NCBI GenBank assembly: GCA_001800135.1
Contig: MGUU01000017.1
Coordinates: 1-47,212 of the forward strand
Direction of reading: 5' to 3'
Length of the DNA stretch: 47,212 nt
From: Elusimicrobia bacterium RIFCSPLOWO2_02_FULL_39_32
GTDB lineage: Bacteria > Elusimicrobiota > Elusimicrobia > 2-02-FULL-39-32
A model generated the notes under the pieces. The model had not been told where the DNA came from. It worked only from the letters and a program-made list of their open reading frames with translations, and ran no database searches. The stretch's first letter is position 1, and each line of letters starts with the position of its first letter. The position numbers were made by a program, and so were the translations under genes. Shown piece by piece: positions 7,119 to 38,205 of the stretch.

Positions 7119-7187
7119 ACGTTCCCTAAGTATAAAGAATTTAGCTCATGCCGTCTTCAACTATTTGTAAATTTTTTGTGACAAAAA

Positions 7188-14728: not shown

Positions 14729-14750
14729 ACTTTTACCCAACCACATATGT

Positions 14751-14767
14751 AGCAAAAAGAATGCCAA
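14751..14767 (-). promoter_or_regulatory. Candidate sigma-54 (-24/-12) promoter for the surface protein/PorV operon
   Basis: The minus strand reads TTGGCATTCTTTTTGCT. The GG of the -24 element and the GC of the -12 element are spaced exactly as in the sigma-54 consensus TGGCAC-N5-TTGC, with one mismatch in TGGCAC. The predicted transcript start is near 14740, just upstream of the ATG at 14728. A sigma-54 activator gene ends 149 bp upstream on the same strand. Confidence 0.7.
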
Positions 14768-19476: not shown

Positions 19477-21092
19477 AGATTATTTTTAAAGAACAACCGC
19501 TCTTTGCCTGCTTCTTTAAAAATCAGGTCAATTTCATCATATTCCAACTCTTCTTTTTTAAGCAGTTCTTTAGCAAAATGCTCTAAAATCGGCCATTCTG
19601 CCTTTAGGGTTTTTTCTACGTCTTCAATGCAACTCTTTAAAATCGCCTGCACCTGACGATTCAAAATATTTTTCATCTCTTCAGAAATCTCATGTTTAGG
19701 AATAGAAGAAAAATCTCCGATACTGCCGTCCGTGCCCATGCCAAACCTCCAGACCATATTGTGCGCAAGCTGCGTGGCTTTTTCAAAGTCCGAGGCAACG
19801 CCGCTAGAGGTTACGCCGTATTTAATCTTTTCTGAAACATACCCTGCCAAAGCCACCTTAATATCCGCCAAGATTTTATCTCTGTCAATGGTGTAGTATT
19901 CCTCGCGAGGCTGATGATGCACCATGCCTAAAGCTCCTCCGCGGGAAATAATGGAAGCTTTAAAAACATCATCTGTGGGATGCAAAAAATAAAGGATCAC
20001 TAAGTGCCCTGATTCATGGTAAGCGATCAGCTCTTTTTCTCGGTCAGTCATGGTCAAACGATGAGCAATGCCTAAATCTATTCTGTCAATCGCTTCTGAA
20101 AAATCCTCATAATCTATTTTTTCTCTTTCTTTGCGCGCCGCAATTAATGCCGCTTCTTTTACGATATTTTCAATATCCGCTGGAGATTTATACACGCATT
20201 TACGAGCCAGGCGACCCACATCAATATCTGTGGTTGTGCTTTTAACTTTAGCCAAATAATAGGCAAAGATTTGTTCTCTTTCTTTAAGGTTAGGCCTGCC
20301 AATATAGATTTTTCTGTCAAACCTTCCCGGACGAAGCAGTGCCTTATCTAAAATATCTTCGCTGGCATTGGTTGCGCCAATCACAACCACATTTTCCTGC
20401 CGATCATTTAAGCCGTCCATCTCTACTAAGAGCTGGTTTTGAGTGCTGTTGGTTTCTTCCCCAGAGCCCATAAAAGAATAGGTTCTTCCACGCCCAATCA
20501 CATCTAGCTCATCAATAAAGACAATCGCGGCTCCATGAGCGTAGGCTAAATCCCGCGCCTTAGAAAAAAGTTTTCTTACCCTAGACGCGCCTACGCCCAC
20601 AAAAATCTCTACAAACTCGCTTCCAGCTACAGATACAAAAGGAATGTTGGATTCACAGGCAATGCCTTTAGCTAGCAAAGTTTTACCGCACCCAGGAGGC
20701 CCAACCATTAGAACTCCCTTAATAATTTTCCCGCCAATTTGCCGTACCCGAGTTCTATCCTTTAAAAGCTGAACCACTTCCCATGCCTCTTTTTTAGCAT
20801 CGTCTAATCCAATAATATCGCGAAAATGGATGTTGACATCTTGAATCTTGATCCTTGTCTTTTTCATGGAGCCAAACCCGCCGCGAAAAACCGTCATGTA
20901 AAAATAAACAAAAATTAATGCGTTTAAAGCGGTCAGAAAAATTTGTAAAGGAATTTGCGCTAAGGTAATATTGCGGTAAAAAGACTCTAAAGACATGAGA
21001 CCGATCACGGTAAAAATTAGAACAATGATTGTGCCAATGGTAATTAAAATCGTGGCTTTATTATTCATCCAAAAGACTTTCAGCTTTCTCAT
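19473..21092 (-). CDS. FtsH-like AAA+ zinc metalloprotease with minimal periplasmic loop
   Basis: 539 residues. There are two membrane helices (about 13-33 and 50-68) with only about 15 residues between them, where typical FtsH has a ~75-residue periplasmic domain. The AAA+ part has Walker A GPPGCGKT (131-138), pore motif FVG within [10 protein letters not shown], Walker B VFIDELD (191-197) and arginine finger region [11 protein letters not shown]. The protease part has HESGH (359-363), a valid HExxH, and the downstream third-ligand region [12 protein letters not shown]. It extracts and degrades membrane or cytosolic proteins. It starts 16 nt after the CheY gene and overlaps the lipoprotein gene. 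Placement in a signalling operon suggests a dedicated paralogue, not the housekeeping FtsH (inference). Confidence 0.93.
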
Positions 21093-21638: not shown

Positions 21639-22784
21639 ATGAGCCCTTTAACTCCTTCCATTGGTTCGCTCCCAAAAATTTTAATTGTGGATGACGAGGT
21701 CACCATTGGCGAATTGCTGCAAGATATTTTAGGCGCTTATGATTTTGAATCTAAATTCGCGGAGGATAAAGAAGAAGCGGTTCAAATCATGAAAGAGTTT
21801 AATCCTACCGTAGCTTTAGTGGACTACCGTTTAGCAAATAATGTGACTGGCTTTGATGTTGCTAAAGAGCTTAAAGAGCTGGATGAAGATATTCCAATCA
21901 TCATCCTAACAGCCTACCCTTCTTTAGAGCTTGCCATGAAAGCAATGCACAATGAAATCTACGACTTTTTAGCCAAGCCTGTTGACAAAGCCTATTTAAT
22001 CCGCAGCATTACCAAAGCTGCTGAAAAAAGAATGCTGATGCAAGAAAATAAAAGATTGATCGCTTCCTTAAAAGAGAGCAACCAAACCCTGGATAAATTA
22101 AATAGAATGAAATCAAAATTTCTCTCCATAGTAACGCATGATTTAAGAACCCCATTAGCTGCGATTCAAGGTTATGCGGAAGTGCTGCAAAGCATGGAGG
22201 ACCTTAAACCTGAGGAAGAAAAAAAATGTCTGCATGCTATTAGCGCAGCCAGTGAAAGAATGAAAGGGCTAATCAATAACCTCATGGATATGGTGAGCAT
22301 TGAATCCGGCAAACTAAGAATAGAAAAATCCGCAATAGACTACATCGCTGTTTGCAATGAGGTAAAAGAAATTTTAGATCCAGTCGCAATTTCTAAAAAA
22401 ATGCGACTTGAATGGGAACTTCCAGCTTCACCGCTCAAACTATTGGGAGATTCTAATCGTCTAGTTCAGGTTCTAACAAACCTTATTTCCAATGCGTTTA
22501 AACATACACCGGAAAATGGAAAGATTACAGTTAAAGTTAGTTTAAAAGAAGGATTCATTTTAACGGAAATCATAGATACTGGAGAAGGAATCGCGCAAGA
22601 GCACCTTAAGAAAATCTTTGAACAATATTATCAAGTAGAAACTTCTGAATCTAAAAGAGAAGGGATTGGTTTAGGACTTTCCATTACAAAAGAAATTGTC
22701 ACTGCTCATCAAGGAGAGATTGGAGCTAAAAGTGAAGGTTTAGGCAAAGGCAGCGCCTTCTGGTTTACCCTGCCAATTCTTTGA
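21639..22784 (+). CDS. Receiver-histidine kinase hybrid (soluble)
   Basis: 381 residues. The receiver (about 12-130) has Asp in VALVDYRLANN and Lys in LAKPVDKAY. A coiled linker leads to the HisKA H-box IVTHDLRTPLAAI (His near 166). A complete HATPase follows: N-box LTNLISNAFKHTP, DTGEGI, EGIGLGLSITKEI. There is no membrane helix, so it probably relays signals from other regulators. It is transcribed divergently from the CheY operon and converges on the end of the 4,876-codon gene, with a 9-bp gap and no clear terminator. Confidence 0.95.
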   Translation: MSPLTPSIGSLPKILIVDDEVTIGELLQDILGAYDFESKFAEDKEEAVQIMKEFNPTVALVDYRLANNVTGFDVAKELKELDEDIPIIILTAYPSLELAMKAMHNEIYDFLAKPVDKAYLIRSITKAAEKRMLMQENKRLIASLKESNQTLDKLNRMKSKFLSIVTHDLRTPLAAIQGYAEVLQSMEDLKPEEEKKCLHAISAASERMKGLINNLMDMVSIESGKLRIEKSAIDYIAVCNEVKEILDPVAISKKMRLEWELPASPLKLLGDSNRLVQVLTNLISNAFKHTPENGKITVKVSLKEGFILTEIIDTGEGIAQEHLKKIFEQYYQVETSESKREGIGLGLSITKEIVTAHQGEIGAKSEGLGKGSAFWFTLPIL

Positions 22785-22793
22785 GTTTTTAGA

Positions 22794-25700
22794 TTACTGA
22801 GAATAGCCAACCACTTTCATTCCAAAGAGACTATTTTCAATAAATACAATCCTATTTTCTTTAAACGCTTCCTGCCAGATTTTTCCCATCAAACCTTCTA
22901 AAGACCATAAGCCATTTTTATTGAGAACTCTTAAAGAATAGCCGTCTGCTAAACCATGAGAGCGAATGAGCTGCTTTAAATTGAACTTGCCTTTTTCTCT
23001 TGGCTGAGTAAGAATACGGAACTGCTCCTTTATCTCATAAAGACTAATCCCCTGATTAAGTAGAATTTTTTCTATTTCTCCTCTGGTTTTTAAAAGATTG
23101 TCCGTGACAATCACAACCTCATATTTTCTTGAACCCTTATTCTCCTCCTCTCCCATGCTTTCTTCTTTCATCTCTTCCAAAAAGCTCCTCACTTCCTCAA
23201 TTGAAGAAGAACAATCTCCTGCATTGAGAACCAACCTTTGATTTTCTTCCTGAATATTATTATTTTGCAGATAAACCCTGTCTCCTAAAATATTTGAAAG
23301 CAGTTTTAATTGATTTTCAGTTGAATTTTTTTGATCAGATTGTTCAGGAGCAACAATGTTCCTAACCGAATTATAAAGGAGTTGAGAGGCTTCTTGATTC
23401 GCAGTAAAAGGGCTAGACCAAACATTAGAAATAGCTTGCAGCGCAGAATCAGACTGTCCCAATAAAGCTTGATTTATTTTCACTCTTTTTTCAACAGCAT
23501 GAGTTAAAATTGGAGAATCCTCTTTTCCAAACGCTACTGCGATAGAAGGATTCATGGAAAAAGTTGCCTCTTCTCCATCTAATTTTTCAAAACTGAGAGG
23601 TGTTAAAGATGGTTTAATCGTCACTTTAACTTTTAATGACGAGCCAATGGATTGCTTTAGATCTTGATGCTTTTGTAAGCTCTGTTCTTTATAAGTTTGC
23701 GCCTGACTATGAGAGAAAGATTGAAACAAAATAGAATTAGAAAATATCGCAGGAATTAAAAACATTGAAAGCAGAACGGATAAAGTAATTTTCATCTTAA
23801 CTGCGATTTTTGAAAAAATCTTTCCAATGGATGGAGGCGCGCGGGCTTCTATTTTTTGCCACAGCTCGTCTGAAACATTGCCGCCTGTGGCGATTCCTAT
23901 AATCACCTCTCTATCATTGAACAGTTCCGGAAAACTTTCAATCGCAAGAGCATTCATACCCGCCGCAACTTCTACTCTCGATCCTCGCAGTTCAGCTTGC
24001 AAACTATTGGAGAAATCATCATAAACCATCATGGTTGCTCTAATCAAATCTTCATTCTTTACAATCACAGAAGCATCCAATGTTTTCAACAATACTTGAA
24101 CCGCAAATTCTTCTGGTTTGGTAACAGCAATCTGATCTTCATCTAAATGATGTTCAGACTCAACTGGAACTTCTATCACTTTGCCCGCCCTTAGAGACTG
24201 ATGCGCCGCATTCACTTTTTCTGTCTGGATTCCGATAACCTTGATATTGGCTCCTCTCATTAAAGCAAGAGTTTTTAAAACCCATGCGATCCCTGCCGCA
24301 TGCCCGCTGGAACCCATGGGAACTGTCACAGCAATATTCTTATGAATCAAACCCATACGCTCCAACTGATCGAAAATCTCTAATCCTGTGGTTGCATATC
24401 CTGCCACCACAAACTCGTCTCCGTTCGGAATGTGAAGGAGGGTTCGTTCCTGGCCAGTGGACTTATCTTTTTCCTCCAATAATTTCACAAACGCGTTCGC
24501 CTGATCATAACCGCTAAATTCTTTGCCCTGATCATCTTGGGTGACAACTCTTGTATAGGGTTGAGATTGAATTGCGTCCATCTTAACGGATTTAATTGAA
24601 GGGGATGTGTAAATTTCAGCAAAGAGATTTTTGGTTTCGTTTGGGTAAAGCAACTTGAGCAAATGAACCGCATAGGCAGTGTTTAACCCATGATTTCCAG
24701 TAGAAGCTGTAACCAATTTTCTTATTTTGTCTCTTCCTTCTTTAAACATTTTAAATAAAACAAAAGCCTTAGCCTGAGCCCGAATCTTAAAAGCTTTGCG
24801 AGGCTGCAAAAATTCCGCTTTATGAAAAACCAGTTTTCCTTCGCCAGCCTTCGCGCTTAAATTCGCCATGGGAATAAGCGGGGTCTCAAGTTTTTTGTTA
24901 TCCATGGCAAGAGCTTCCTCCAATGCCTTTTTAGATTCCAAAACCATGGTCATGCTGAGCCATTCGATCTCTCTTGAGCGCGAGGCGTCTGGATTCAGCC
25001 AAACAGTCTCTGGATCGTCATTCCCTAAAAGGAGCTGAGGAATATCAATCACAGTTACACCCTGCTTAAGGAAAAGTTTTAAAAATAACTTAGAAAATTG
25101 TTGAGCTCCTAAAGGAGTAGGGTTAAAAGCGCGGCTGTAATAAAGAGCGTTCACGAAAACAGCAACTGTTTCTCCCACAAGAGAGGGAATTTCATGTGGA
25201 TCATCTATGTTCAAATCTTGAGTATGTTGTAAATCTTTTAGAACCTGACGTTCTAAGCGATCAAAAAACTGGATAAGATCTATCTTTTGACTAGATTTAT
25301 ATTGATCCACCAAAGAATTAATATATTGCTGAAATTCAATTCTTCCTCCTTTAAGAACACCCCCATCTGCTTTAAGCATGAGTAACTTTATTTGAAAACC
25401 GTAGTAAAAATCGTCCCACAAACCATTTTGGAAGAAAGAAAAATTCAAAAGCGCTTTTGGCAGGCGATGAACTTTCCGATGCCAATAATATGAGTTCACA
25501 ATTAGGTGCGGCAAAACCAATAAGAACGGCAGGGTTACTAAAAGGGAGCTGCCCGTTAGATGGAAAAGAGAATAGGGAATAAGAAAAAGCGCGGTTAAAG
25601 CAGTGATAAGAAGTTTGTCGGTTTTAAAAGCGTCAGTGCGGCCGTGCAAGCGGTGCCAAGTGAACTGGAAAAAGCCAAGAATGAGAAATAGAGGCGGTCC

Positions 25701-28700
25701 GATCTCCAAAGGAATCCCAAAAATCCGTTCAAGAATCATTTGCGTTAAAACCGTCATTCCGCCCACCCACAAACCCGACTCTATTAAGGAAGGAGAGAAC
25801 GCCTGCCCAAACCAGTTCAAACCTAATCGGTCATAATATTTTTGCAGCGCTGGCCACTTGCCACCCTCTCCTTCCACCTTTTCTTTTGCTGATTTATCAA
25901 ACTTGATTTGACCCGCCTGATTTTTATCTTCAGACAAAAATGAAATTCTTAAAGCCAAAATTTTAGGAAGAAGTTTTAAACCTTGTTCTCCTTCCACAAA
26001 CCTAAATAGATTTCTTTCATCTTGTGTCAATTCAACTTTAAGCTTATTAAATTCAGCAAGAAATTTCGGCAAGTGATCCTCAATTTTCTGGATGATCTCA
26101 TTAAACAGTTCTTGATTTTTATTGTGGTCTTTACTCCACCTCCCTTGATCCGCCAAATTTATATAATCTTCTAAAGATTTAACTAAAGGCTCTGCATGTT
26201 TTATGGATTGAGATTTTTTCTTTTCCCTTTCTAAAACAATTGGCAGCCATAGATGCAAAAAGCCATAGGCTGAACCAGCAATGTCATAGACCAAATCAAT
26301 ATCTTCATAGTCCGTGGTATATTTCCTTACAGAATCCATCCTTCTAAATTCTTCAAACAAATCTTGTGAAACCTCCAAAGTGAGTTTTCCAGACTCTATT
26401 TGAGTTTTTAGATATTCAAGCGCTAACAAAACGTAAAACTCGCCTGTTGCTTTTTTTAAATCGGTCTGAGGAGTCTTCAACAGCTCAGCCAAGCGACCGC
26501 GCTGAATCTGAAGAAGAGTATCCCATCTCTCTGTTGAATAAAGAGACGCAGGATCTAATGCAAAAACATCTGGTTCGCCTAAACTAGAAATAAACTTATA
26601 ATAGACTTGGAACGCCTCATCTATCATAAACCTTCGTTTGATTCTACGCGCTAAGGATAGATAGATTGTAGCAGCATTAATATAAACATCTTGGAATTTC
26701 AGCCTTACCTCAGGATCAGGAATTCCTAAATTAATAATTTCTTGACTCATATTCTTTGTCTTTTCATAAATAGTATCCGCATCCATTAACTCAAGGATTC
26801 CTTTTAATATCTCCTCCATGTGATCAAATGGGAAAATTTGAGCAACTGTTTTTTTCTGTTTTATTTGTTGAATCAGATCCTGAATCTGAGAGCTTGAAAA
26901 TAATTTTTTATCTCGTATTAGCTCTAAAAACTTTTTAATTTGGCTTTCTTCCCACTTTGCTTTATAGAGAGCGCTTCCTAAAGCAACCGCCTCTCTAATT
27001 CTTAAATCCGGCAAGACTTCCAGAATATGAGAAAACAAAAACTTTCTCTCTTCATGACTTTTTAACGCAGCAGCAGTTCTTGCTTTACGCTCTTCTACTT
27101 TCTCACGCTCTTTTGCTTCTTCCGCAACCTGCCTCGCCACCTCAGCTTCTTCCTTTTTCCTTTTTTTTATTTCTTCCTCAACCCGTTTTGTTTCTTCCAG
27201 AGCTTTGATTTGAGCCTGCCAAAGTTGAAGCCGTAATTGCGCCTCTCTTTTTCTCGAATCTTCTTCTTTCTGTCTGGCCGCTAGAGCAGCCTTTCGCTCC
27301 AACTCTCTTACTCTCGCTGCATCTTCTAAGAGCAAAGCTCTATTTTCAGCAAGCTTCTTTTCTAATTCATTTTGTACAGCGCTTAAACTCTCTTCCATCG
27401 CCCTTTTCAATTCAGGGCTAACTTTCACTATCTCAGTTTGGAGCATCTCATTTAGAAAATCCACAACTTTCTGATTTGGATTCTCTTTTAAAGATTCTAC
27501 GCGTTTGATTAAATCTTTAATGGTTTGATCCTCTTTTCTCTGTTTAGGTTTTTCATTAAAGAAATCAAACCTTGCCTTTAAAAATTCTAAACGAATTTCT
27601 AAAGGAGCAAAACCACTGATTCTCGAGTCAATGCTCATAATAATCTGAATCATTCTTTTGCGTGTCTGATCATTTGCATTTAGCTCTAAACTTTTTAAAG
27701 CCATTTGATTAAGAATCAAGCTGAATTTCTCTTCTCCTATCATCAAGCCTTTAAACGCATCCACAAATTTTTGTAAAGATTCATTTTGGATTTTTACGCT
27801 GTTCACCCTGAATATAGACTCTATTAATTCCTTAATTAATTCTAAAGCTTCAGCCTCTTTTCCAGACTCTAAATAAGCAGCGGTCAGATCCGTCATGGTA
27901 TAAATATTTTCAGGATCCAAAAATTTCGCTTTTTCCCAGGATTCCACTGCCTGCTCTAACCGATATGACCGCTCCGTTCCTTCTGGCAAGGAATAAACTA
28001 AAGCCGCATGATTCGCTCCAAGCAGCGAATAAAAAATTCTATTTCTTTTATCCGTGTCATTAGATGTGTCTCCATTAGAAAATTTCTCTAAATAAAAAGT
28101 AAGAAAATTTCCAGCCTGTTCCATCAGCCCTAAATTCATCAACGCTCTTGCGCAATATTCAACTGCGCGCCGTTCCAGATCTTCAGATAAATCTGGTTGT
28201 TTCAATGCCCAACTATAACTATTAATACTCCTCCCAAGATTTCTAGAAATTTCAATTCTTCTTTTGTTTTTGAGTTCTATTTCATCTTCTCTTTCACCAG
28301 TTTCAGTTTTATCACTTCTCATTGCTTCCACAACTTGCTCAAAATAAACATCTCCTAAAAGCGCCCTGACATAAGCAGGTTGAATAGAACTATCCGGCAA
28401 TAATAGAGTTTCTGCTTTTTTCAAAGCTGTTATAGCTTCACTATATGCTGATTTATCCACATCTGCTAGATTAAAGTAAGACAATCCCAAAAACATCCAA
28501 AGCTTTCCCTGCTCTTTTACCGGAGGATTTAAACCAAGCGCGTTTTGATAACTTTCTATAGCTCTCTTCCAATTCCCTGCTATTCTAGCTTGATCTCCCT
28601 TAGCCGCTACTTTTAACCACTCTGGAATCTGGGTGCCAAATGAAACACCTTGCGTGTCATCCATATCTTTCCAGCGATTCCTAATATCATCAAAGAGTCC

Positions 28701-31700
28701 TGTGGTCTTATCTTTAGAATCTCCAAAAAGATCTAAAGTTCCTCCAACCATTGGCATAATCAAAGCTCTAGGATCAATACCCGTCAATACCTCTATACCT
28801 TTATCTAATGCTCTTATAATTGCCGGCGAAATATTTTCAAATGTATTTGTAATACTAGCTCTCTGACTCGCACTAGCACTTTCATTCGCACTCACTTTCG
28901 CACTTGCACTCATACTCGTCCTCACATTAGTTCCAGCCCCTCTATTTCTCCTATTCTTTTGTTGTCTTACTCTTCTAATCTTCCTTTTCTTTATTTTATT
29001 TGTGATCCCATTCCCATTCATAACAATGGGCAGCCAGATTGTGAAGCGAGCGCCTCCCTGTCTAACCATCTCTCCTTGATCATTAAACAAAGGCAAACGT
29101 AATCTGGACTCATTATCCGCCTCAATCGTGCCCTTAGAATCTTCAACTATAATTTTCCAAGCTTCAGACATTCCAACTCCTCTTTCTTTTCCTCCTGTAG
29201 TTCCTCCTCGATTCCAAATCATTTGTCTCTGCGTTAAATGGTCATAAGACAACATCTCAGACAAAATGCCCTTGCCATCATCCTCAACTGTAATTTCAAC
29301 TCCCCATTTTCTTTTTTTTCTTTTGCGATTAAACGTAATATTCACCCGAGCATCCCAAGACTGCCGTTCAAAAGCATTTTTCTCAGCGCAATTCTTTAAA
29401 ATTTCGCCTAAAACCCTTTGCAAACCAATAGGATTCGCTATCTTTACTAAATCCGCGTCATTTAAAAATTCATGGGTGATAAAGTACTCTTTCTCTCCAT
29501 CTACCAAACGAAAAGGTATTTTTATTGGTTTTTCATCTTTTTTCTCATTTAAGATCACTTCCACTACAGTCAAACCATTCCACCAATCGCTAAAACGATT
29601 TCTGGTCTCATTATATTTATATGTATCATTCTCCATGTAACCAACTCTTCCGCCAAATTGCTGCCATACCCTGTCCAAGGTCTCCGGAGAGTTCTCCCCT
29701 TGTTTTTTTAAAAACTGAATTTGCATGTTTAAAATATTAGGCACAAACACTAAGTAATATGGGTAATAGAAATATTCAATGAATCTTTGCACTCCTTCTA
29801 CTTTTTCCTTATCTCTAAAATTCATTTTAGTCAGCTTTCCCCGCAAACGATTGATATTGGAATTTAAATCCCGCGGGTGGCCAATCGCTCTAATCAATTC
29901 CTCAAAAACCGCTATGATCTCTTCATTGGACAAATTGACCCAATCTTGCTTAAATAAAACATTTAATTTCTCCAAAGCTTCTTTAATGCTCTTTTCCAAT
30001 TCAAAAAATTCATCCTCATCTTCTGATTCCAATAGTTCCTGCAAATAGGCGGGCACCAAAGTGGATAAGAGACCAAGATAATCCAATAAAGCGTGTGAAT
30101 TCAAACTGATTCTAGAAATAACGCGCCGCATGATCGCTTCATAATGAACTTTGATCGTCTTATCTTTGTTATGATTTTCAAGGTGTTGAAGCGCTAAAAT
30201 TATTTTAGCCTTTTCCTCCAATTGGTCCAGCATCACAGTTGGATTGACCATCAAACTATGAAACTCAGCGATCTGAAGGCTGACAAGTTGATCCCATACA
30301 TCTTTTTGCTTTTTCATCAAGGTATAAGGATCAATGTCAACAAAATTTCTTTCTATCTCTTGGCCTCCTTGATTAACCTTAAATTTATATTTAGAAATAA
30401 TCTGGTAATAAGCCACAACCGCGATAGAAAGGTCTGAATCTAAATTTTCTAGAAATTTAACCAGATTTGCTTCGGTCTGGCTGCTATTCACATCAGGGCT
30501 ATTTCCAAAAACAGTTTTTAGGCTTGAAACAATTTCATTGAACATCTTATTTTCTTGAGCCTTTTCAACGGCTCTTTGAACTCTTACTAGATGTTCTTTC
30601 AAAGGCAAAACATAAGTAGAATAATAATTGTGCCCCTCTACTTTGATTCCTTGGATAATATCTTCTAAATCTGATATATCTACAAGAATAGAACGAACAT
30701 CATAAGAATCTAAAATCCTATTTCTATACCGCCTATAAATATCTTCCTGTTCCTCATCTATTTTGGATTTAACAATTTCAAAAAGAGGGTAGTCTCCAAT
30801 AGATCCTATTTCTTTTATAACAAAACCTAATTCTTTAAAAGCAGCATTAAATTCAGTCGCCCGTATTTTGTGGCTGAGCATCACCAAAAATTTACCATCA
30901 TCTTTAAGCACCCTCATGATCTCGCTGGCTGCTTTCAAATAATAGTCTCGCGGTTTGGTATAGCCGATAATTTTCATGGCAGTGATATCAAAATATTCAT
31001 CAAAGAACGGTTCTGCTATAACCAAATCATATTGGTTGGAATCCTTGCGAATATCTAAAATATCACCCTTGCTAAATAGTTCGGATGACATTCCATTGGT
31101 TCCGGCAAAAGGGCTGATACTGTCCGCGCCCATTCCAGCTTTAACCAAATGAGTGGCAACACAATTCTCTGGAGCTACATTCTCCAAACCAACATACAAA
31201 ACCCGATTGCCTGACAAACTTCCCATCACCTGATCAATTTGCATCCCGTGATCAATCCCATACTTTGCTATGATTATATTAACCAGCCAAATTCGATGCT
31301 CTTGTGTCATTGGAATTCTTGAACGGTTTTCAAATAATCCCCATGTTTTCTCAGCAACTAACTCTGGATTTTCTATTGCCTGCGCAAGATAGGCTTCCAC
31401 ATTGGGATGAGGAAGCGCTTCAAATATAAGATCCAAACTATAGTTTTTCTGCCATTTTTCAATCGTAGTCCAAGGCGCTAACTTAGTGCTTAAAAGCCTT
31501 GCTATTTGCCACTCATTTAAACCATTTTCCTCATAAGTTTTAATTTGTTGAAGAAGCCTCTCTGCTAAATCCGCTAAATCAATAGGATCAAAATAAAGTT
31601 TTTCCAAACTAGAAAGATCAGATAGTTTTAATAAACCTTCTTCTTTTAAAAAATCTAGTGATTTTTTTTGAAGTCTAACAAGAGTCCAGGCTATGGTTTT

Positions 31701-34700
31701 AGCTTGAGCATCTGAAATTTCTTCATAGGTAGCCTCATTCAAATTTTGAGAAAGTTTATTTACAAACTCTAGCTCCAAAGGAAAAAGATAGCGCACGTTT
31801 CCATAAACAGGCTCTAACCGGGTGAGTGACCTTGAATCTGGATCATCAGCTTTATGCTCCACATGCCAAATCATCTTAGTTTTTCCATGAACATCCAATT
31901 GCACCTCAACTTCACCTTTCTTCCTATTTCTAAAAATTGGCAGATAAGATTCTTTTGTCGCAGTGAACTTTCCATCTTTATCCAAATGAAGAGAGTGTAA
32001 AGTTAATTCCCCATACTTATTGGCAAGATCAGCTAAGTAACTGGGCTCAATCTCCTCAGTCCGACGATAAACATGGACTAATTGGTGTTTTGAATTTCTT
32101 ACTTCAATCATTTTCACAGGCTTATGAACTTTATCTGGAGTGATAAATTCAACTAAAGTCGGGTACTCTATAAGATCACCATCTATATCCAGACCTTTCT
32201 CAACATGAGCCCTTACTTTTGCATTCTTTAATTCTTTGATTTCTGTTATGGTCCAAAAATCTAAGTCTAAAGGAAGTTCTCCATCACTTAACTTAGTTGT
32301 TATGATTGACTTATCCCCTACTGTGGAATCGCCATTATGAGCTGCGCCTGCGATATGAGCTAAAGGAAGCCATTTTCTTAAAAGTCTAAGAGCGTTTTCT
32401 GAAATTATTTTATCCGCAAAACGGCTATTGAGAAATAACACAAAAGCATTATAAGATGAGTGAGCGATTGTGCTCATTGAATAAGCATCTAAACGAACTC
32501 CATGAATGTAGAACGTAGGAACAAATGTAAATATTAAGAGGTAAACAGCAGTAAAAATAAAGGAAGGAAAAATATATTTAGAAAAATCAATGGCTGCGTC
32601 TTTAAAGCCAGTATAAATTCTTTTCTCTTTGGGTTTACTCTGGTCAACAATCCACTTTACAATCACATGGCTAGCTGAAAAAACAAAAATACTTAAAACC
32701 AACACCAAGCCGATTCCCATAGGATCCAAAGAAAAGAAAGATTCCAGCGTAATATCTCTCCCTCCAATTACAAGGTCTCTAAAAATTTTTTCCTCTGCAA
32801 GAGGCGCGCCCAAAAGAACCAAAAACAAATAAAGTGGATAAGCATTCTTGCGCAAGCGCTGCACGAATTGAAGCGAATCCAAAATAAATGCCGGACCTGA
32901 TTTTTTACCAGACGATTCATTAGGAGGAAGAAGACCAAACCATCTTTTAACTAACTTTTTCTTTAAACCTTTCTCTTCTGAAAAAGGAAAATCTGCTAGA
33001 GAATCATTGGATTTATTTATTTTGATTTCGTGCCTTCGGGGGTGAGTCATCATTAGACGATTGATGATATCGGACACACCCAAGCTCCTCATATAAGAAG
33101 GGAACCGATCCAATATGTCGTGAGGAATGAAACCATTCTCGCGCAGCCAAGCTGTAGTAAAATGGTAGATATGATTGTACCATTCGTCAATATTCTGGAC
33201 TTCGGTTCCTCTTCTAAAAAGCGGCGAGTACTTCTGAATGGCTTGCGTAAGCCGCATGAAATCCGCTTCTTGCATGCGATCGAATATTTGAATCAATCTT
33301 TTATACGTCTCATAATCTAAACTTCCCCGATAAGAATCTGGGAGCATAAACGCATAAACTGAAATAAATGGAACTGCGGCTAAACAGATTTTTCTTGCGG
33401 CAGTTGGGATAGATTTAGTGGAATTAATTTGTTTGCGGTAAGCTCGAAACCTAGAAGGAGAATAGGGTTCAAGCAGCATTGATTTAGGATTCAAGTTCAA
33501 AGATTTATATTTGCCCTTACTGCCAGATAATTTAGAAGCATTCGAATGGCCAGCGCCCACTCGAATAAGAATAGATGCCCTAGGATGATCCTGTTTTAAT
33601 TTTTGCACAAGCTCTGCCAAAGCTTGGTCCCTTAAACTAATATGCTTTTCAAGCTCCAAATAATAAATTGCCATCTCCTTTAAAAATAACTTCTCATCTT
33701 TCTTGTCATAAAGAGCTTTCATGGCTCTATCCATGGCAAGTTCCGAACGAATTCCTGCCAGCATGCTCTCAAAAGGAGCTTTCTCTCCCCTCACCTGAAT
33801 CTTAGGGTTTCTTACAAGATAATCAAAAAGTGCTTGATTATTTCTAACATCTCCGCCAATCGCTTCCCCCCTACGCGCTTTCGCCACCCCTTCTTCATAT
33901 CCTTTCCAACCGGCTTTCAAAATTCCTTCTAAGGCCTTCCTAATTGTGGGATCATTCAATTTCTTTGGACTATCTATAATGGATTTAATGCTGGGTGAAT
34001 ATTGTCTTAAATGTTGAAGCTGGGGAGGAGCTGATTCTATAACAACAAATAATTCCGAATGATTTTTTGAAGCTGACTCAACTTGCTTAATAAACCCTTG
34101 AGTAGATTCTGTGACATGATTTTCAAAATACCAGATCACTTCACCAGTTGTCTGCAGCGCTCTTGAAGCTTTTACCACTTGAACCGGAGCCAAAACCGCC
34201 GCCTTGGAAGGGAGAGCCTTGCTCAACATCATTACTGCCGGCGCCGGGGCTAAAACTGCTGCGAAGGAAGGCTGCGCTTTTCCAAATGTCAGCATCGAGG
34301 ATGTCATGAGAGAAACCAATAAAACTGGAAGAAGACCAAACCATCTTCTACCTAACTTCTTCTTGGAAGGAGCTTGGGGTGGTGGCGGCAGCTGAGGAGT
34401 AGAGTAATAGAGTTCATCCCTTGCCTGTTTTAACTGCTCAAACTGCTCTTTTAACTGATCATAGATATCTTGAACCTTGACTACTCCATAGAGCCTGCCT
34501 CTCCTTGACTCTTCTGGAATTAGATTTCCTCCACAATTTTGATTCTCTTGCGCAATATCAGGATAATGCTTTAACAGTTTATCTGCCTGTAAAATCGCCT
34601 CTCCCACAGATTCTAAAATTTCATCTAAAGCAGCGCCTAGCATTTCTATTTCTGATGGATTGAGAACTCTTAATTCTTTGCGAGCATTTAAAACAGTTTC

Positions 34701-37424
34701 CTCAAATAGATACATAAAATACTTCTTATAAACCAATTCGCTAACTGAATCTAGGAGCTTGTAAACCCTTTGCTTTGCCAAATTTTTTGGCGTAGGCGCA
34801 AAAACAGCTAAACGTCTATTGCCCACCCATTTTTCACGCACAATCTCAAAAACATCAATATATTTAAATGTATCCAAAGAACTTTTGAGATCACTGGGAA
34901 GATTTTTAATTTGATTCAATTTTTCTTCTAAAGGAGTAAGCATAAAATCATCTAAACTTAAATGCGTGATACAACGCAAATATCGAAGAAGAGGGATCGG
35001 TTTTTTCAACTCAGAATAGGAAACTGCTATCACCGAACGATGAGACGGAGCAATGGTTACTCCTACCCGCTCAGGATTTCTTAACACAGCTAATATAAAA
35101 AGAACAAACCTAAGCAAAGAAGCCGGGTTTTGAGGATTGTTTGCAATTGAAATGTTTGGCAAACTGCGAATATCCTCTATAAGCAAATCATCAAATCCAA
35201 ACTGTTTCTGCAAATCTTTCAAAGAAATTTCTTTATGCTGCATGAGAGAACTGTAATTCACGCTTGGATCATACTCATACTGAAAAGTGTCTATGATTTT
35301 AAATTCAAAAAACTGGCCTTGGGGAACAAAACCCATAGAAACTATGGAGCCGCCCATATTGTGCCTAAAATTATTTTGAGCATAACTTAAAAGCATGGCA
35401 GCTAAATAAAATTTTTGACCAGCATTGAGCTCAGCCATATTGGATACAAAATCAATAATTTTTTGTTCATTTGTCTCTGCCCAACTGTGGACACTGGGAT
35501 CCACTCTATCTCCATAATTTCTATGTAAAGGGATAGCTAATCTCGTATTCTCAAGAGTCATGGGTAAAGAACCTTCTCTTAAAACAATACTGGTTGCCTG
35601 TTCAGTAGGAGAGGTAAGGAAATCTTCTAACTTAGCTGCTAAAGGAGCTTCTTCATAAGGGCGTTTATAGTGAATAATTCCATCAATATGTTCCATCTCT
35701 CCCATTAAATCAATATAGCCATAAGCGCTTGCGCCATTGGTCTTTACTAAAACTGCGCTCACCACAGCCATGGTGAATAAAGGCAAAGAAAGACCAAGTG
35801 GGTCATACCCTTGCTGACCTTCACTCACCCCTGCAATAATCGTTGCTGGATCCCTAATCTGTGAAGGTATCTGATTAAAATCTTGGATATGCGCAAACCC
35901 TGTGATTGCAGCTATTCTGGCTTCTGGATGGCTAGAAAGATATTGGTCAATAAACTGTCCCATATAAACTCCACGGTTATAAGACTGTTCATCTTCTTTT
36001 TTATAAATTTTCTGTTCGTTTTCAGGCATATCCATAAATAAAACTTCCAAGCCAAGTTCTTGAGCCTGTCTGACCAACTGTATAAAACGATGCGAAATCC
36101 TAGTTCTCTCTGCAATGTTTTCTATATCACCCACATCTAAATCAGAGCCGATTTCTATAAATAAATGCGTAATACCCGCATCTTTCAGCTCTTTCAAATG
36201 TTCAATAAATCCTCTTTGCACTCCTAAAAAACCATGGTTGGTATCTCCAATAATAAGCGCTCTTTTGCCAAAAAGTAATTGACGATAATCCACCCCTTCT
36301 CTCCATCCCCTATCCACAACCTCTTCCCAGCGAGAATTGTCCCCTATTCCAATATCAGTGAGAATGTTTAATTTTTGTTGAGATATAGAACGAGCGTTTG
36401 GCAATCTCCCCTGTGCTTGTGTAAGTTCCCCAGAGACAGGATTGCTGATTTTCATTCCACCCTCTCCATCTGACTTTCCTAGAGAGGATTCTGAACCAGC
36501 TTGCCCTTGAGGAACATCTGTTTGATCAAAAGGTTGAATATCATCCCCAGAGGCGCGCGCTAAAACCCGCGGCAGCGCTACTTGTCTTACACTATGTTTA
36601 ACTTTTGACCGTCTTGGTCCAGCCAACTTTTTACTCTTGCGGAATGTGAGCTTTCCTTTTCTATTGAATTGCGGCAGAATTCCGCTTTCCGGCCAAACAG
36701 CTTTTTTTGAAGAACCCGAGATAAGATTCTCCATCCTCCAATCTCTACTAGCCTCAAACTCTTTATCGCCACCAACCAAAATCTGCTCAATTTTAGAATC
36801 ATCTGTTTCTACCCCGGACAATTCCCCATGAACCATTAGAGCTGGAAGGGACTTTACTAAAAGAGCTGCTTGTCCCAACTTCAACATGCTGGCAGTTCTT
36901 AAAGTGCCCATAGAAGCCTCTATTTCAGATTTAAGATTTTGAACTTTAGAAGGATAGAAATGTTCTCTGGGTGAATACTCTAAAACAAAATGGACGCGGT
37001 GCTGGTCTCCTTGATAAGCTCCGAGAATATATTCTTTTCCCTCGCGCTCAATTGGAGCTGTAAAAAAGAGCCTGTTCTTTAAAGTATCTAAAACTAAGGC
37101 TGCTTCAATTTTTGTTTCGCTCTCTGGGGAACTTTTTCTTAAAACCTCTAGTTTCAAGATGTAATCATTGAGGGAAGAGACGAATTTTTCCGGAGTTAAA
37201 ATTTTCTTTGGAAGCGATCTGAAATCTTCTGGCCCGGACTTTAAGTTGGATTTAGGACTTTGATTTGAATAATTGAAATTAGGCAAAACCTCTGTTCTCA
37301 TATTTCTGGCGCTCGCATAAGGCGGAGCGACCATTGAAAAAATAAAAGAAAACAAGCTTGCTAGAGCTAAAGCTTTTTTCCATAGAGGCAGAACCCTTCT
37401 TTCTCGATTAGGAGCCGGTTTCAT
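22794..37424 (-). CDS. Giant multi-enzyme membrane protein, 4,876 aa (TraB/ChaN-like x2, CPBP protease, methyltransferase, GHKL ATPase, TPR, PLP enzyme)
   Basis: One uninterrupted frame. The order below is read from motifs; boundaries are rough. A signal peptide at 1-40 ends APPYASA. A TraB/ChaN/EreA-like domain spans about 350-530 (IGDTNHG, IEIGSD, ITGFAHI). A possible degenerate GHKL fragment lies near 680 (YAQNNFRHNMGG). Pro-rich linker and membrane helix follow at about 1010-1045. A second TraB/ChaN-like domain spans about 1095-1300 (FENHV, GAGHS). The CPBP protease has EEKIFR near 1543, FSASH near 1584 and HSSYN near 1655. The class I methyltransferase spans about 2065-2215 (VLYVGLE, DLVIAEPF). 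The GHKL ATPase spans about 2620-2800 (EILKNCAEKN, EDDGKGI, GGKERGVGM). TPRs lie at about 2940-3270, a coiled coil at about 3335-3445, and membrane helices at about 3880-3980. The PLP fold-II enzyme spans about 4160-4530 (KAFKIRAQ, ASTGNHG, GSSGHAAG, ATGGN). A further helix (about 4543-4565) and an unknown C-terminus end the protein. Confidence 0.93.
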   Translation of the reverse strand: MKPAPNRERRVLPLWKKALALASLFSFIFSMVAPPYASARNMRTEVLPNFNYSNQSPKSNLKSGPEDFRSLPKKILTPEKFVSSLNDYILKLEVLRKSSPESETKIEAALVLDTLKNRLFFTAPIEREGKEYILGAYQGDQHRVHFVLEYSPREHFYPSKVQNLKSEIEASMGTLRTASMLKLGQAALLVKSLPALMVHGELSGVETDDSKIEQILVGGDKEFEASRDWRMENLISGSSKKAVWPESGILPQFNRKGKLTFRKSKKLAGPRRSKVKHSVRQVALPRVLARASGDDIQPFDQTDVPQGQAGSESSLGKSDGEGGMKISNPVSGELTQAQGRLPNARSISQQKLNILTDIGIGDNSRWEEVVDRGWREGVDYRQLLFGKRALIIGDTNHGFLGVQRGFIEHLKELKDAGITHLFIEIGSDLDVGDIENIAERTRISHRFIQLVRQAQELGLEVLFMDMPENEQKIYKKEDEQSYNRGVYMGQFIDQYLSSHPEARIAAITGFAHIQDFNQIPSQIRDPATIIAGVSEGQQGYDPLGLSLPLFTMAVVSAVLVKTNGASAYGYIDLMGEMEHIDGIIHYKRPYEEAPLAAKLEDFLTSPTEQATSIVLREGSLPMTLENTRLAIPLHRNYGDRVDPSVHSWAETNEQKIIDFVSNMAELNAGQKFYLAAMLLSYAQNNFRHNMGGSIVSMGFVPQGQFFEFKIIDTFQYEYDPSVNYSSLMQHKEISLKDLQKQFGFDDLLIEDIRSLPNISIANNPQNPASLLRFVLFILAVLRNPERVGVTIAPSHRSVIAVSYSELKKPIPLLRYLRCITHLSLDDFMLTPLEEKLNQIKNLPSDLKSSLDTFKYIDVFEIVREKWVGNRRLAVFAPTPKNLAKQRVYKLLDSVSELVYKKYFMYLFEETVLNARKELRVLNPSEIEMLGAALDEILESVGEAILQADKLLKHYPDIAQENQNCGGNLIPEESRRGRLYGVVKVQDIYDQLKEQFEQLKQARDELYYSTPQLPPPPQAPSKKKLGRRWFGLLPVLLVSLMTSSMLTFGKAQPSFAAVLAPAPAVMMLSKALPSKAAVLAPVQVVKASRALQTTGEVIWYFENHVTESTQGFIKQVESASKNHSELFVVIESAPPQLQHLRQYSPSIKSIIDSPKKLNDPTIRKALEGILKAGWKGYEEGVAKARRGEAIGGDVRNNQALFDYLVRNPKIQVRGEKAPFESMLAGIRSELAMDRAMKALYDKKDEKLFLKEMAIYYLELEKHISLRDQALAELVQKLKQDHPRASILIRVGAGHSNASKLSGSKGKYKSLNLNPKSMLLEPYSPSRFRAYRKQINSTKSIPTAARKICLAAVPFISVYAFMLPDSYRGSLDYETYKRLIQIFDRMQEADFMRLTQAIQKYSPLFRRGTEVQNIDEWYNHIYHFTTAWLRENGFIPHDILDRFPSYMRSLGVSDIINRLMMTHPRRHEIKINKSNDSLADFPFSEEKGLKKKLVKRWFGLLPPNESSGKKSGPAFILDSLQFVQRLRKNAYPLYLFLVLLGAPLAEEKIFRDLVIGGRDITLESFFSLDPMGIGLVLVLSIFVFSASHVIVKWIVDQSKPKEKRIYTGFKDAAIDFSKYIFPSFIFTAVYLLIFTFVPTFYIHGVRLDAYSMSTIAHSSYNAFVLFLNSRFADKIISENALRLLRKWLPLAHIAGAAHNGDSTVGDKSIITTKLSDGELPLDLDFWTITEIKELKNAKVRAHVEKGLDIDGDLIEYPTLVEFITPDKVHKPVKMIEVRNSKHQLVHVYRRTEEIEPSYLADLANKYGELTLHSLHLDKDGKFTATKESYLPIFRNRKKGEVEVQLDVHGKTKMIWHVEHKADDPDSRSLTRLEPVYGNVRYLFPLELEFVNKLSQNLNEATYEEISDAQAKTIAWTLVRLQKKSLDFLKEEGLLKLSDLSSLEKLYFDPIDLADLAERLLQQIKTYEENGLNEWQIARLLSTKLAPWTTIEKWQKNYSLDLIFEALPHPNVEAYLAQAIENPELVAEKTWGLFENRSRIPMTQEHRIWLVNIIIAKYGIDHGMQIDQVMGSLSGNRVLYVGLENVAPENCVATHLVKAGMGADSISPFAGTNGMSSELFSKGDILDIRKDSNQYDLVIAEPFFDEYFDITAMKIIGYTKPRDYYLKAASEIMRVLKDDGKFLVMLSHKIRATEFNAAFKELGFVIKEIGSIGDYPLFEIVKSKIDEEQEDIYRRYRNRILDSYDVRSILVDISDLEDIIQGIKVEGHNYYSTYVLPLKEHLVRVQRAVEKAQENKMFNEIVSSLKTVFGNSPDVNSSQTEANLVKFLENLDSDLSIAVVAYYQIISKYKFKVNQGGQEIERNFVDIDPYTLMKKQKDVWDQLVSLQIAEFHSLMVNPTVMLDQLEEKAKIILALQHLENHNKDKTIKVHYEAIMRRVISRISLNSHALLDYLGLLSTLVPAYLQELLESEDEDEFFELEKSIKEALEKLNVLFKQDWVNLSNEEIIAVFEELIRAIGHPRDLNSNINRLRGKLTKMNFRDKEKVEGVQRFIEYFYYPYYLVFVPNILNMQIQFLKKQGENSPETLDRVWQQFGGRVGYMENDTYKYNETRNRFSDWWNGLTVVEVILNEKKDEKPIKIPFRLVDGEKEYFITHEFLNDADLVKIANPIGLQRVLGEILKNCAEKNAFERQSWDARVNITFNRKRKKRKWGVEITVEDDGKGILSEMLSYDHLTQRQMIWNRGGTTGGKERGVGMSEAWKIIVEDSKGTIEADNESRLRLPLFNDQGEMVRQGGARFTIWLPIVMNGNGITNKIKKRKIRRVRQQKNRRNRGAGTNVRTSMSASAKVSANESASASQRASITNTFENISPAIIRALDKGIEVLTGIDPRALIMPMVGGTLDLFGDSKDKTTGLFDDIRNRWKDMDDTQGVSFGTQIPEWLKVAAKGDQARIAGNWKRAIESYQNALGLNPPVKEQGKLWMFLGLSYFNLADVDKSAYSEAITALKKAETLLLPDSSIQPAYVRALLGDVYFEQVVEAMRSDKTETGEREDEIELKNKRRIEISRNLGRSINSYSWALKQPDLSEDLERRAVEYCARALMNLGLMEQAGNFLTFYLEKFSNGDTSNDTDKRNRIFYSLLGANHAALVYSLPEGTERSYRLEQAVESWEKAKFLDPENIYTMTDLTAAYLESGKEAEALELIKELIESIFRVNSVKIQNESLQKFVDAFKGLMIGEEKFSLILNQMALKSLELNANDQTRKRMIQIIMSIDSRISGFAPLEIRLEFLKARFDFFNEKPKQRKEDQTIKDLIKRVESLKENPNQKVVDFLNEMLQTEIVKVSPELKRAMEESLSAVQNELEKKLAENRALLLEDAARVRELERKAALAARQKEEDSRKREAQLRLQLWQAQIKALEETKRVEEEIKKRKKEEAEVARQVAEEAKEREKVEERKARTAAALKSHEERKFLFSHILEVLPDLRIREAVALGSALYKAKWEESQIKKFLELIRDKKLFSSSQIQDLIQQIKQKKTVAQIFPFDHMEEILKGILELMDADTIYEKTKNMSQEIINLGIPDPEVRLKFQDVYINAATIYLSLARRIKRRFMIDEAFQVYYKFISSLGEPDVFALDPASLYSTERWDTLLQIQRGRLAELLKTPQTDLKKATGEFYVLLALEYLKTQIESGKLTLEVSQDLFEEFRRMDSVRKYTTDYEDIDLVYDIAGSAYGFLHLWLPIVLEREKKKSQSIKHAEPLVKSLEDYINLADQGRWSKDHNKNQELFNEIIQKIEDHLPKFLAEFNKLKVELTQDERNLFRFVEGEQGLKLLPKILALRISFLSEDKNQAGQIKFDKSAKEKVEGEGGKWPALQKYYDRLGLNWFGQAFSPSLIESGLWVGGMTVLTQMILERIFGIPLEIGPPLFLILGFFQFTWHRLHGRTDAFKTDKLLITALTALFLIPYSLFHLTGSSLLVTLPFLLVLPHLIVNSYYWHRKVHRLPKALLNFSFFQNGLWDDFYYGFQIKLLMLKADGGVLKGGRIEFQQYINSLVDQYKSSQKIDLIQFFDRLERQVLKDLQHTQDLNIDDPHEIPSLVGETVAVFVNALYYSRAFNPTPLGAQQFSKLFLKLFLKQGVTVIDIPQLLLGNDDPETVWLNPDASRSREIEWLSMTMVLESKKALEEALAMDNKKLETPLIPMANLSAKAGEGKLVFHKAEFLQPRKAFKIRAQAKAFVLFKMFKEGRDKIRKLVTASTGNHGLNTAYAVHLLKLLYPNETKNLFAEIYTSPSIKSVKMDAIQSQPYTRVVTQDDQGKEFSGYDQANAFVKLLEEKDKSTGQERTLLHIPNGDEFVVAGYATTGLEIFDQLERMGLIHKNIAVTVPMGSSGHAAGIAWVLKTLALMRGANIKVIGIQTEKVNAAHQSLRAGKVIEVPVESEHHLDEDQIAVTKPEEFAVQVLLKTLDASVIVKNEDLIRATMMVYDDFSNSLQAELRGSRVEVAAGMNALAIESFPELFNDREVIIGIATGGNVSDELWQKIEARAPPSIGKIFSKIAVKMKITLSVLLSMFLIPAIFSNSILFQSFSHSQAQTYKEQSLQKHQDLKQSIGSSLKVKVTIKPSLTPLSFEKLDGEEATFSMNPSIAVAFGKEDSPILTHAVEKRVKINQALLGQSDSALQAISNVWSSPFTANQEASQLLYNSVRNIVAPEQSDQKNSTENQLKLLSNILGDRVYLQNNNIQEENQRLVLNAGDCSSSIEEVRSFLEEMKEESMGEEENKGSRKYEVVIVTDNLLKTRGEIEKILLNQGISLYEIKEQFRILTQPREKGKFNLKQLIRSHGLADGYSLRVLNKNGLWSLEGLMGKIWQEAFKENRIVFIENSLFGMKVVGYSQ

Positions 37425-37470
37425 ATAAGTTAAATTTTACTAGATAGTTCTAAACTTTTCTTGAACTTTT

Positions 37471-37498
37471 TGTAACATTTTTGTAACATTTTTGTAAC
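37471..37498. promoter_or_regulatory. Three 11-bp direct repeats: candidate OmpR/PhoB-type operator
   Basis: TGTAAC occurs at 37471, 37482 and 37493, exactly 11 bp apart and joined by identical ATTTT spacers. On the minus strand this reads GTTACAAAAAT in tandem, with a degenerate fourth copy further on. PhoB/OmpR-family dimers bind 11-bp direct repeats. The site lies in the 82-bp gap between the giant gene (minus, 47 bp away) and an OmpR-type regulator gene (plus, 9 bp away). Autoregulation plus control of the giant gene is the simplest reading (inference). Confidence 0.7.
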
Positions 37499-37506
37499 GC
37501 AAATCA

Positions 37507-38205
37507 ATGGAACAACATAAACAAACCATTCTTGTCATTGAAGATGAAGTCCACATACGCGATCTAGTAGAGACGATTCTCACGGATAATGGTTTTGTTA
37601 CAACAGGATGCGATTCAGCTGAAAAAGCCTTAAAAAAAATCCCCTCGATTAAACCAGACCTTATTCTCTTAGATATTCAGCTGACAGGCATGAATGGCTT
37701 AGAGTGCTGTAAACAAATCCGTTTAGACCCGCAGATGAGAGATATTCCCATTATCTTTCTTACTGTGCAGTCTTCAGACGCTTATAAAATTACAGGGCTT
37801 GAATCTGGCGGGGATGATTTTATCACTAAACCTTTTAGCCATGGCGAACTCTTAGCCAGGGTGAGAGCTGTTTTAAGAAGAGTGCATCGGCCAAAGGTGA
37901 GCTTAAATAAAAACATATTAAAAGATGACCTAATCGCATTAGATTTGGAAAACCGAGTCACTAAAATAGAAAACAAAGAATATGAACTCACCCCAAAAGA
38001 GTTTGACTTGCTTGTGCTTTTCTTAAAATCCAGAGGCAAAGTGTTGAGCAGAGATCTACTTTCCACCCAAGTTTGGGAAAGAGAAAACATAGGAACTTCC
38101 AGAACCATAGACACTCACATCGGCAGGTTAAGGAAAAAATTAGGCAAGTATGGTTTAATGATTCATACAGTTGGCCGAATCGGCTACCGCTACAACCCAG
38201 AATAA
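37507..38205 (+). CDS. OmpR/PhoB-family response regulator, divergent from the giant gene
   Basis: 232 residues. The receiver (about 6-122) has Asp in LILLDIQLTGMNG and Lys in FITKPFSHGE. The winged helix (about 140-230) has LTPKEFDLLVLFLKSRGKVLS, the recognition helix region TIDTHIGRLRKKLG and the wing IHTVGRIGYRY. No clear ribosome-binding sequence precedes the ATG, because the repeat operator comes within 9 bp, so the transcript leader must be very short. It is a paralogue of the regulator at 17560. Its kinase is not adjacent; the hybrids at 21639 and 38680 are candidates. Confidence 0.95.
   Translation: MEQHKQTILVIEDEVHIRDLVETILTDNGFVTTGCDSAEKALKKIPSIKPDLILLDIQLTGMNGLECCKQIRLDPQMRDIPIIFLTVQSSDAYKITGLESGGDDFITKPFSHGELLARVRAVLRRVHRPKVSLNKNILKDDLIALDLENRVTKIENKEYELTPKEFDLLVLFLKSRGKVLSRDLLSTQVWERENIGTSRTIDTHIGRLRKKLGKYGLMIHTVGRIGYRYNPE

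Follow-up and report, generated by a model that had tools for sequence, protein, structure and literature searches.

A 4,876-residue multi-module protein of an Elusimicrobia bacterium and its membership of a giant-protein family with similar termini and a shared promoter box

Introduction

Why a single bacterial gene should encode several enzyme modules that belong to no common pathway, and what its product might do, is the question raised by a 47,212-nucleotide stretch of an Elusimicrobia genome (the window, analysed here at its full length). Giant genes are a long-standing puzzle, their products being reported as poor in recognisable domains and poorly conserved, with an obscure role. According to the available text of Seymour et al. 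2023 (PMC10066038), giant ORFs, defined there as those of >20 kb, are known in Omnitrophota and related phyla and include a gene for a 39,678-aa protein of Velamenicoccus; giant genes of Elusimicrobia are cited as reported in the available text of PMC12057145. The frame studied here, P0001, falls short of that definition with its 14,631 bp. An earlier note, made from the letters of the window, had viewed it against the giants of Omnitrophota. The host is labelled Elusimicrobia, as are the two nearest named genomes ('Elusimicrobia bacterium', from groundwater: NC_groundwater_250_Ag_S-0.2um_38_13 and nzgw210), the label being that of the records and not of a phylogenomic analysis.

Results

A single frame conserved in a second species

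The one frame of 4,876 residues described in the earlier note was confirmed, and runs uninterrupted from ATG to stop on the minus strand (Table 1). Because a random frame at the base composition of the window would meet a stop approximately every 15 codons, a chance origin of this frame is excluded. The window is the complete contig C17 of a MAG (2.52 Mb, 27 contigs, 97% complete), and a contig of this kind might contain adjacent genes joined by assembly or binning, the event that the earlier note had named as capable of overturning its claim. However, the separate assembly of a sister species from the same genus contains a collinear ortholog (L032; identity, 83–84.7%; dN, 0.086 and dS, 0.371 over 4,849 aligned codons) with identical gene order, flanks, and promoter box, the flanking products being 95.5% (hybrid kinase), 98.7% (PhoB-type regulator), 91% (receiver), and 95% (second kinase) identical. 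The collinear frame in the second assembly rules out such a join, whose chance we regard as vanishingly small; the 4,876-aa frame is real and not an assembly artefact. The possibility that P0001 is a pseudogene was dropped on the dN/dS comparison of the orthologs.

Table 1. Positions of P0001, its modules, and neighbouring elements in the window
Feature	Residues	Window position	Strand	Basis or remark
Giant ORF (P0001)	4,876 aa	22794..37424	minus	Stop codon included; sequence and collinear 5,061-aa ortholog L032
Sec-type signal peptide, type shared by giants (LxxFSFIFSMVAPPYASA)	1-40	37305..37424	minus	
N-domain (ND)	73-200	36825..37208	minus	Exclusive to giants of this family
TraB/ChaN (Tiki)-like domain 1	385-540	35805..36272	minus	Motif-level: GDTNHG, FIEIG, GFAH
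Internal signal-like or anchor segment (KKKLGRR + TM + SFAA)	1024-1057	34254..34355	minus	
TraB/ChaN-like domain 2	1094-1307	33504..34145	minus	Motif-level; recurrent in other giants
Likely CPBP (Rce1-type) membrane protease	1530-1668	32421..32837	minus	Motifs; Pfam just below cut-off
Degenerate class I methyltransferase-like domain	2036-2240	30705..31319	minus	Without GxGxG loop
Helical repeat A	2324-2572	29709..30455	minus	Conserved NSHALLD / NFHALLD
GHKL (HATPase_c) domain	2664-2800	29025..29435	minus	Pfam, box motifs
TPR region	2943-3210	27795..28598	minus	TPR_11 just below Pfam cut-off
Helical repeat B	3581-3830	25935..26684	minus	Homolog of A
About 4 transmembrane helices	3885-3985	25470..25772	minus	Positive loops suggest N-in/C-in
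Fold-type II PLP enzyme, threonine dehydratase-like	4180-4468	24021..24887	minus	Pfam, motifs
Internal signal-like segment before C-domain (KMK-TM-SHSQAQ)	4545-4576	23697..23792	minus	Also in short ortholog
C-domain (CD)	4701-4876	22797..23324	minus	Tail ...VGYSQ
Box, three 11-bp direct repeats TTTTTGTAAC[AG]		37467..37499	.	~45 bp upstream of giant ATG, 9 bp before regulator ATG
PhoB/OmpR-family response regulator (Response_reg + Trans_reg_C)		37507..38205	plus	Divergent from giant; proposed box binder
Hybrid sensor histidine kinase (receiver-HisKA-HATPase)		21639..22784	plus	Convergent with giant; synteny kept in sister species
Second giant of the window	2,372+ aa	3..7118	minus	Cut by contig end; box at 7164-7182

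Enzyme modules of P0001

The claim that the frame carries at least five catalytic folds with mostly intact key residues held for three of the modules, is plausible for two, and failed for one. The fold-type II PLP enzyme and the GHKL ATPase are secure. The PLP module matched the PALP family (PF00291) in Pfam (E, 1.9e-31; 110 bits against a cut-off of 35) and contains the lysine of AFKIR (~4213), the STGNHG form of the SxGNHG loop (4241), and the glycine-rich phosphate loop MGS[SG]GHAAG (4370). Its score is below every NCBIfam equivalog cut-off, and assignment as an IlvA equivalog is not supported (at most 78 bits with the best NCBIfam model, against at least 371). Since four stand-alone PALP genes are present in the host genome, and four in that of the sister species, the module in P0001 represents an extra enzyme. 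Its sole near relative among 231 genomes of the class resides in a 2,103-aa giant of another family (G020; 30% identity). The GHKL domain (HATPase_c; E, 1.7e-9; 38.6 bits against 26.4) possesses the N (EILKNC), G1 (EDDGKGI), and G2 (GGKERGVGM) boxes, all retained in a 31%-identical short ortholog. A Pfam scan of P0001 detected no HisKA/DHp phospho-acceptor domain, a conserved His being present only in a helical repeat.

A CPBP protease module is likely. The Pfam match to Rce1/CPBP is slightly under the cut-off (E, 0.002; 18.8 bits against 22.4), and all three motifs, EExxxR (EEKIFR, 1544), FxxxH (FSASH, 1582), and HxxxN (HSSYN, 1655), lie in predicted TM helices and are retained in the sister ortholog; the module recurs in at least four further giants. 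Two TraB/ChaN (Tiki)-like domains are plausible from the motif set GxxH / E / GxxH found in both. The second occurs in four copies in the 6,960-aa C5 giant, and one of its 9 homologs gave a weak Pfam match to ChaN (E, 6e-4). A PDB search found no solved-structure homolog of either domain, and profile comparison of the two gave no significant match, only a stretch of R..HP..G..H being common.

The methyltransferase, by contrast with the earlier reading, does not have intact key residues. The fold itself is weakly recognisable (YcgJ 1xxl; E, 0.013), and the SAM loop, normally GxGxG, reads VLYVGLENVAP, so that the glycine-rich loop of motif I in class I SAM methyltransferases is lost; the domain is also present in the short ortholog, where the loop is more eroded. 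An AlphaFold model of residues 2036–2805, computed from three sequences, was unusable (pLDDT, 38).

Two further points of the earlier note stand: unrelated enzyme modules share one frame with no single pathway known to unite them, and their combination is unusual, the full order being seen solely in this genus among the genomes searched. Scarcely any Pfam enzyme was recognisable in the giants C5, C21, G001:C10, and G003:C8.

Constraint and gain of modules

Between P0001 and the sister ortholog, dN/dS is lowest in the PLP module (0.11), the C-domain (0.12), the N-domain (0.13), and the methyltransferase-like domain (0.14), followed by the GHKL and both TraB-like domains (0.21 each), the CPBP module (0.36), and a linker (0.88). 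Every domain is under purifying selection, and the catalytic motifs are kept in the ortholog; their loss in all relatives, which the earlier note had also considered fatal to its view, did not occur. One may still regard P0001 as a degenerate patchwork of gene pieces captured and fused in frame, with dead enzymes and a role only as bulk or scaffold, given the degenerate methyltransferase loop, the NCBIfam equivalog scores far under cut-off (78 vs 371 bits), and the fast evolution of the linkers. However, the ratios of 0.11–0.21 in most domains with intact catalytic motifs, and the persistence of the GHKL motifs in the distant short ortholog, render this interpretation quite unlikely.

That short ortholog, L041 (1,989 aa), from a different but related genus, is composed only of the signal, the N-domain, the methyltransferase remnant, a duplicated helical domain, the GHKL domain, the TPR, and the C-domain. 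Because the PLP, protease, and TraB modules are missing in L041, they look like insertions into an older core, which suggests that a giant may grow when complete enzyme modules are inserted into a core of 2,000 residues; the alternative is loss in the short form, a choice that a single outgroup does not settle. In the sister ortholog, the linker that follows the N-domain is longer by ~160 aa and includes four additional TM-like segments, probably a recent change akin to module insertion. No relatives of the P0001 core were found in viral contigs. Separately, dS between the sister species, 0.37 overall, falls to 0.17 at 33435-34184 (around TraB-like domain 2) and to 0.16 at 23475-23834 (residues 4531–4650), for which gene conversion or recent exchange is possible.

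Architecture and membrane topology

Helical repeat B of P0001 lies within the most conserved core, with 43% identity to the short ortholog. The C-domain was modelled by AlphaFold as an alpha/beta fold (pLDDT, 64; pTM, 0.64), which showed no significant match in the PDB.

Based on hydropathy and charge, a coherent topology can be proposed for the chain. No TM-like segment was seen by hydropathy between the signal and TraB-like domain 1, the positive loops indicate that the CPBP module and the 3885–3985 module each have their two ends inside, and a K-rich segment preceding the C-domain suggests its export. The positive loops would fit most of this topology; segments 542–560, without clear charge bias, and 1346–1364, with a bias wrong for the assumed direction, fit it poorly. 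A short linker, RWFGLLP preceded by a K-rich lead, is duplicated in P0001 (34326-34346 and 32925-32945) and present once in the ortholog.

The same segments allow a different interpretation, in which the frame encodes a polyprotein cut at internal signal-like segments (~1057 and ~4576) into separate secreted and cytoplasmic enzymes, perhaps also by the CPBP module or a nearby M41 protease. Residues 1024–1057 and 4545–4576 resemble signal peptides, and in L041 a classical signal peptide (FRLSTMALSIFIATLFAPVAYPYIGHSSALAA, residues 1755–1795, ending in SSALAA) is located mid-chain, immediately before the C-domain. An AAA + peptidase M41 (FtsH-like) gene, a candidate processing or quality-control protease, lies near the giant in the window (19473-21092, minus). 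The signal-like segments are, however, equally suited as TM anchors, and the GHKL and PLP modules would still require a cytoplasmic location; we consider such processing unlikely.

P0001 might also be secreted to make contact with other cells or to digest them, as an adhesin on the surface or a weapon for predation, since giants of Omnitrophota and relatives are so interpreted in the available texts of PMC10066038 and PMC12057145, and P0001 has a signal peptide. Against this role, Pfam and NCBIfam scans found no adhesin, carbohydrate-binding, or hydrolase domain in P0001, its recognisable enzymes need ATP and PLP, both cytoplasmic, and the chain has multiple TM segments; the role thus appears distinctly improbable.

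Type IX secretion was rejected as a route for P0001, whose tail, judged by eye, is not of the K/R-ending type of two neighbours. These neighbours belong to three minus-strand ORFs (9118-9525, 9672-11678, and 11684-14767), in which two ORFs ending in ...KKTGKL[IV]V[TI]R (FlgD_ig-like C-termini) surround a PorV-like/TPR protein, and the trio looks like type IX secretion substrates with part of the shuttle.

A shared promoter box and its putative regulator

Between P0001 and the divergent regulator gene, TTTTTGTAACA occurs three times at an 11-bp period, identically in the sister species. The underlying pattern, GTTACA-N5-GTTACA, is an 11-bp direct repeat with PhoB/PhoP geometry. Its sites exceed those of a reversed control (G000, 58 vs 10; G001, 53 vs 6; G003, 38 vs 1; G004, 41 vs 2; G005, 15 vs 0), being enriched in the family and weak or absent outside, and no enrichment of the box was obtained with a control of wrong period (10 bp). 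In 21 aligned giant genes, the box lies 29–245 bp upstream in a single orientation and is followed by GTT[TG]AAGA and then by a TATAmT-like -10. Among stretches chosen without regard to the box, it was found at 12 of 15 ORFs of at least 1,000 aa, compared with 4 of 82 shorter ones (p, 1e-9). A correctly oriented box is present at most 1.5 kb upstream of the domain in 43 of the 51 Tiki-led giants of the family, and the gene of the short ortholog has an exact copy (G004:C98:142-160).

The box is located within ~20 bp of the start of the regulator in four genomes (that of the window, G001, G003, and G006). PhoP/PhoB-type regulators usually bind direct repeats of 11-bp period, exemplified by TGTTTA-n5-TGTTTA for Escherichia coli PhoP and by 7-bp repeats with a 4-bp spacer for M. 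tuberculosis PhoP (PMC9019756); we infer that the neighbouring PhoB-type regulator would bind the box, and that giants which span the membrane and differ in their enzyme cargo would form its regulon. Because G006 possesses the regulator with Tiki-led giants undetected, and a search of the incomplete MAGs G005 and G007 gave no close ortholog of the regulator, it may act on further targets, or its role may be taken by a different regulator. A dense two-component cluster with at least four kinases and several receivers extends on both sides of the giant (7284-43111).

Related ends and a common tail

Giants were collected from genome stretches and not counted exhaustively per genome, the N-terminal Tiki-like leader domain (A14) being the collecting criterion for most of them. 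This leader was found in 20 of 235 genomes of the class and in 60 of 295 of the phylum. P0001 is absent among the A14 matches listed for G000 and has no such leader, its N-domain directly following the signal. Of the 9 genomes of the family, 8 contain the N-domain, which was not detected in any further genome searched in the class; its matches are mostly in long ORFs of up to 11,491 codons. Most giants begin with one signal type, often followed by WxERRKA, and with the Tiki-like domain, and the C-domains of many are connected by iterated profiles.

In most giants the last residue is A or Q, and the one before it is commonly Q, S, A, or N ([QSNA][AQ]). Among 39 giants of the class selected by the Tiki domain and contig position only, 35 have this tail, compared with 13 of 86 ordinary ORFs (p, 7e-16, a value inflated because the C-domains are related by descent and their independence is overstated). 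In other classes, 15 of 16 giants end in A[AGQ], and the tail is retained across giant groups that are otherwise very divergent. Since the box is weak or absent beyond the family, although giants and their tails occur throughout the phylum, the regulation can be separated from the tail. P0001 has the shared signal type, the C-domain, the tail, and the promoter box, and on these sequence features is a member of a giant family that has similar termini and a single promoter box in common, instead of being a stand-alone curiosity.

Other giants of the host genome reach 11,471 aa. In the second giant of the window, a tandem repeat of 282 bp (94 aa) occurs ~7.7 times. At G000:C16:296851-331323, the 11,471-aa giant is immediately followed downstream by one of 3,512 aa; both are without a box of their own, and two boxes are found at a 288-aa gene heading this row. 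Two multi-membrane proteins with 39% identity, possibly glycosyltransferases, are encoded at 43363-44967 (minus) of the window and at G000:C16:344841-346826, the latter adjoining another giant gene.

Discussion

Proposed mechanism

As the best overall explanation, to which we assign an even chance, P0001 may belong to a set of giants that are regulated together, exported, and threaded through the membrane. The 11-bp repeat box lying 45 bp upstream of its ATG is common to most giants of the family; the divergent PhoB-type regulator would bind this box, and a two-component signal could switch the giants together. The Sec-type signal is predicted to start export, later hydrophobic segments threading the chain, by which the TraB/ChaN-like domains and the C-domain would reside outside the inner membrane and the CPBP module within it. 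The methyltransferase remnant, GHKL ATPase, TPRs, and PLP enzyme would be cytoplasmic, the ATP- and PLP-using modules being so placed because ATP and PLP are there. By comparison of the orthologs, the signal, the N-domain, the methyltransferase remnant, the helical/GHKL/TPR core, and the C-domain probably constitute the ancestral part. The core may function as a GHKL-driven envelope sensor or scaffold on which the inserted enzymes act locally, and the [QSNA][AQ] tail may be recognised when the giants are placed or pass quality control.

Altogether, the results suggest that giants form a dedicated class of their own in both production and handling. A bolder extension, which we hold only tentatively and with less than even expectation, is a dedicated giant pathway in the phylum, comprising one two-component system for dozens of family giants and a factor that reads the C-domain and tail. 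If so, this factor would place or proof-read full-length chains, modules could swap freely between fixed ends, and the tail would be an 'I am complete' signal ending chains of 2,000–12,000 residues. The membership of P0001 in a set of giants with a shared tail and promoter box appears to be new; a literature search covering few subscription papers and no preprints brought up no account of a common tail, promoter box, or regulon in giants. With the shared box, related ends, and near-identical tail, the switch, the destination, and the end recognition of giants become directly testable.

Comparison with known systems

The PLP module of P0001 resembles the threonine dehydratase / serine racemase group (PF00291; PDB 8y1j, 1ve5), matching 8y1j with an E-value of 1.5e-10 and sharing the PLP lysine (FKIR), STGNHG, and equivalents of the C-terminal ATGGN, but is embedded in a giant. 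In common with sensor histidine kinases and other GHKL ATPases (PF02518), P0001 has intact N, G1, and G2 boxes, and its GHKL domain is preceded by a long helical region in which a His is conserved, whereas it has no detectable HisKA or receiver domain in the chain and its helical region is duplicated. The likely protease shares EExxxR, FxxxH, and HxxxN in predicted TM segments with the type II CAAX prenyl protease / CPBP family (PF02517), and differs in scoring under the Pfam cut-off and in its location within a giant. Similarly to PhoB/PhoP boxes (PMC9019756), the box of the giants consists of direct repeats of 11-bp period upstream of a -10-like TATAmT and adjoins a gene for a PhoB/OmpR-type regulator; unlike those boxes, its targets are giant proteins, its half-site is GTTACA, and its regulator is a putative one.

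The closest parallel is provided by the giants of Omnitrophota type as described in the available text of PMC10066038, with which P0001 shares a very long single frame, a signal peptide, many TM segments, few annotated domains in most members, and an origin in uncultured groundwater bacteria. It differs from them in its length of 14.6 kb, in a host labelled Elusimicrobia, and in metabolic-type enzymes instead of adhesins, and, as far as such giants are described in the available texts of PMC10066038 and PMC12057145, in the promoter box and C-terminal tail that are shared here.
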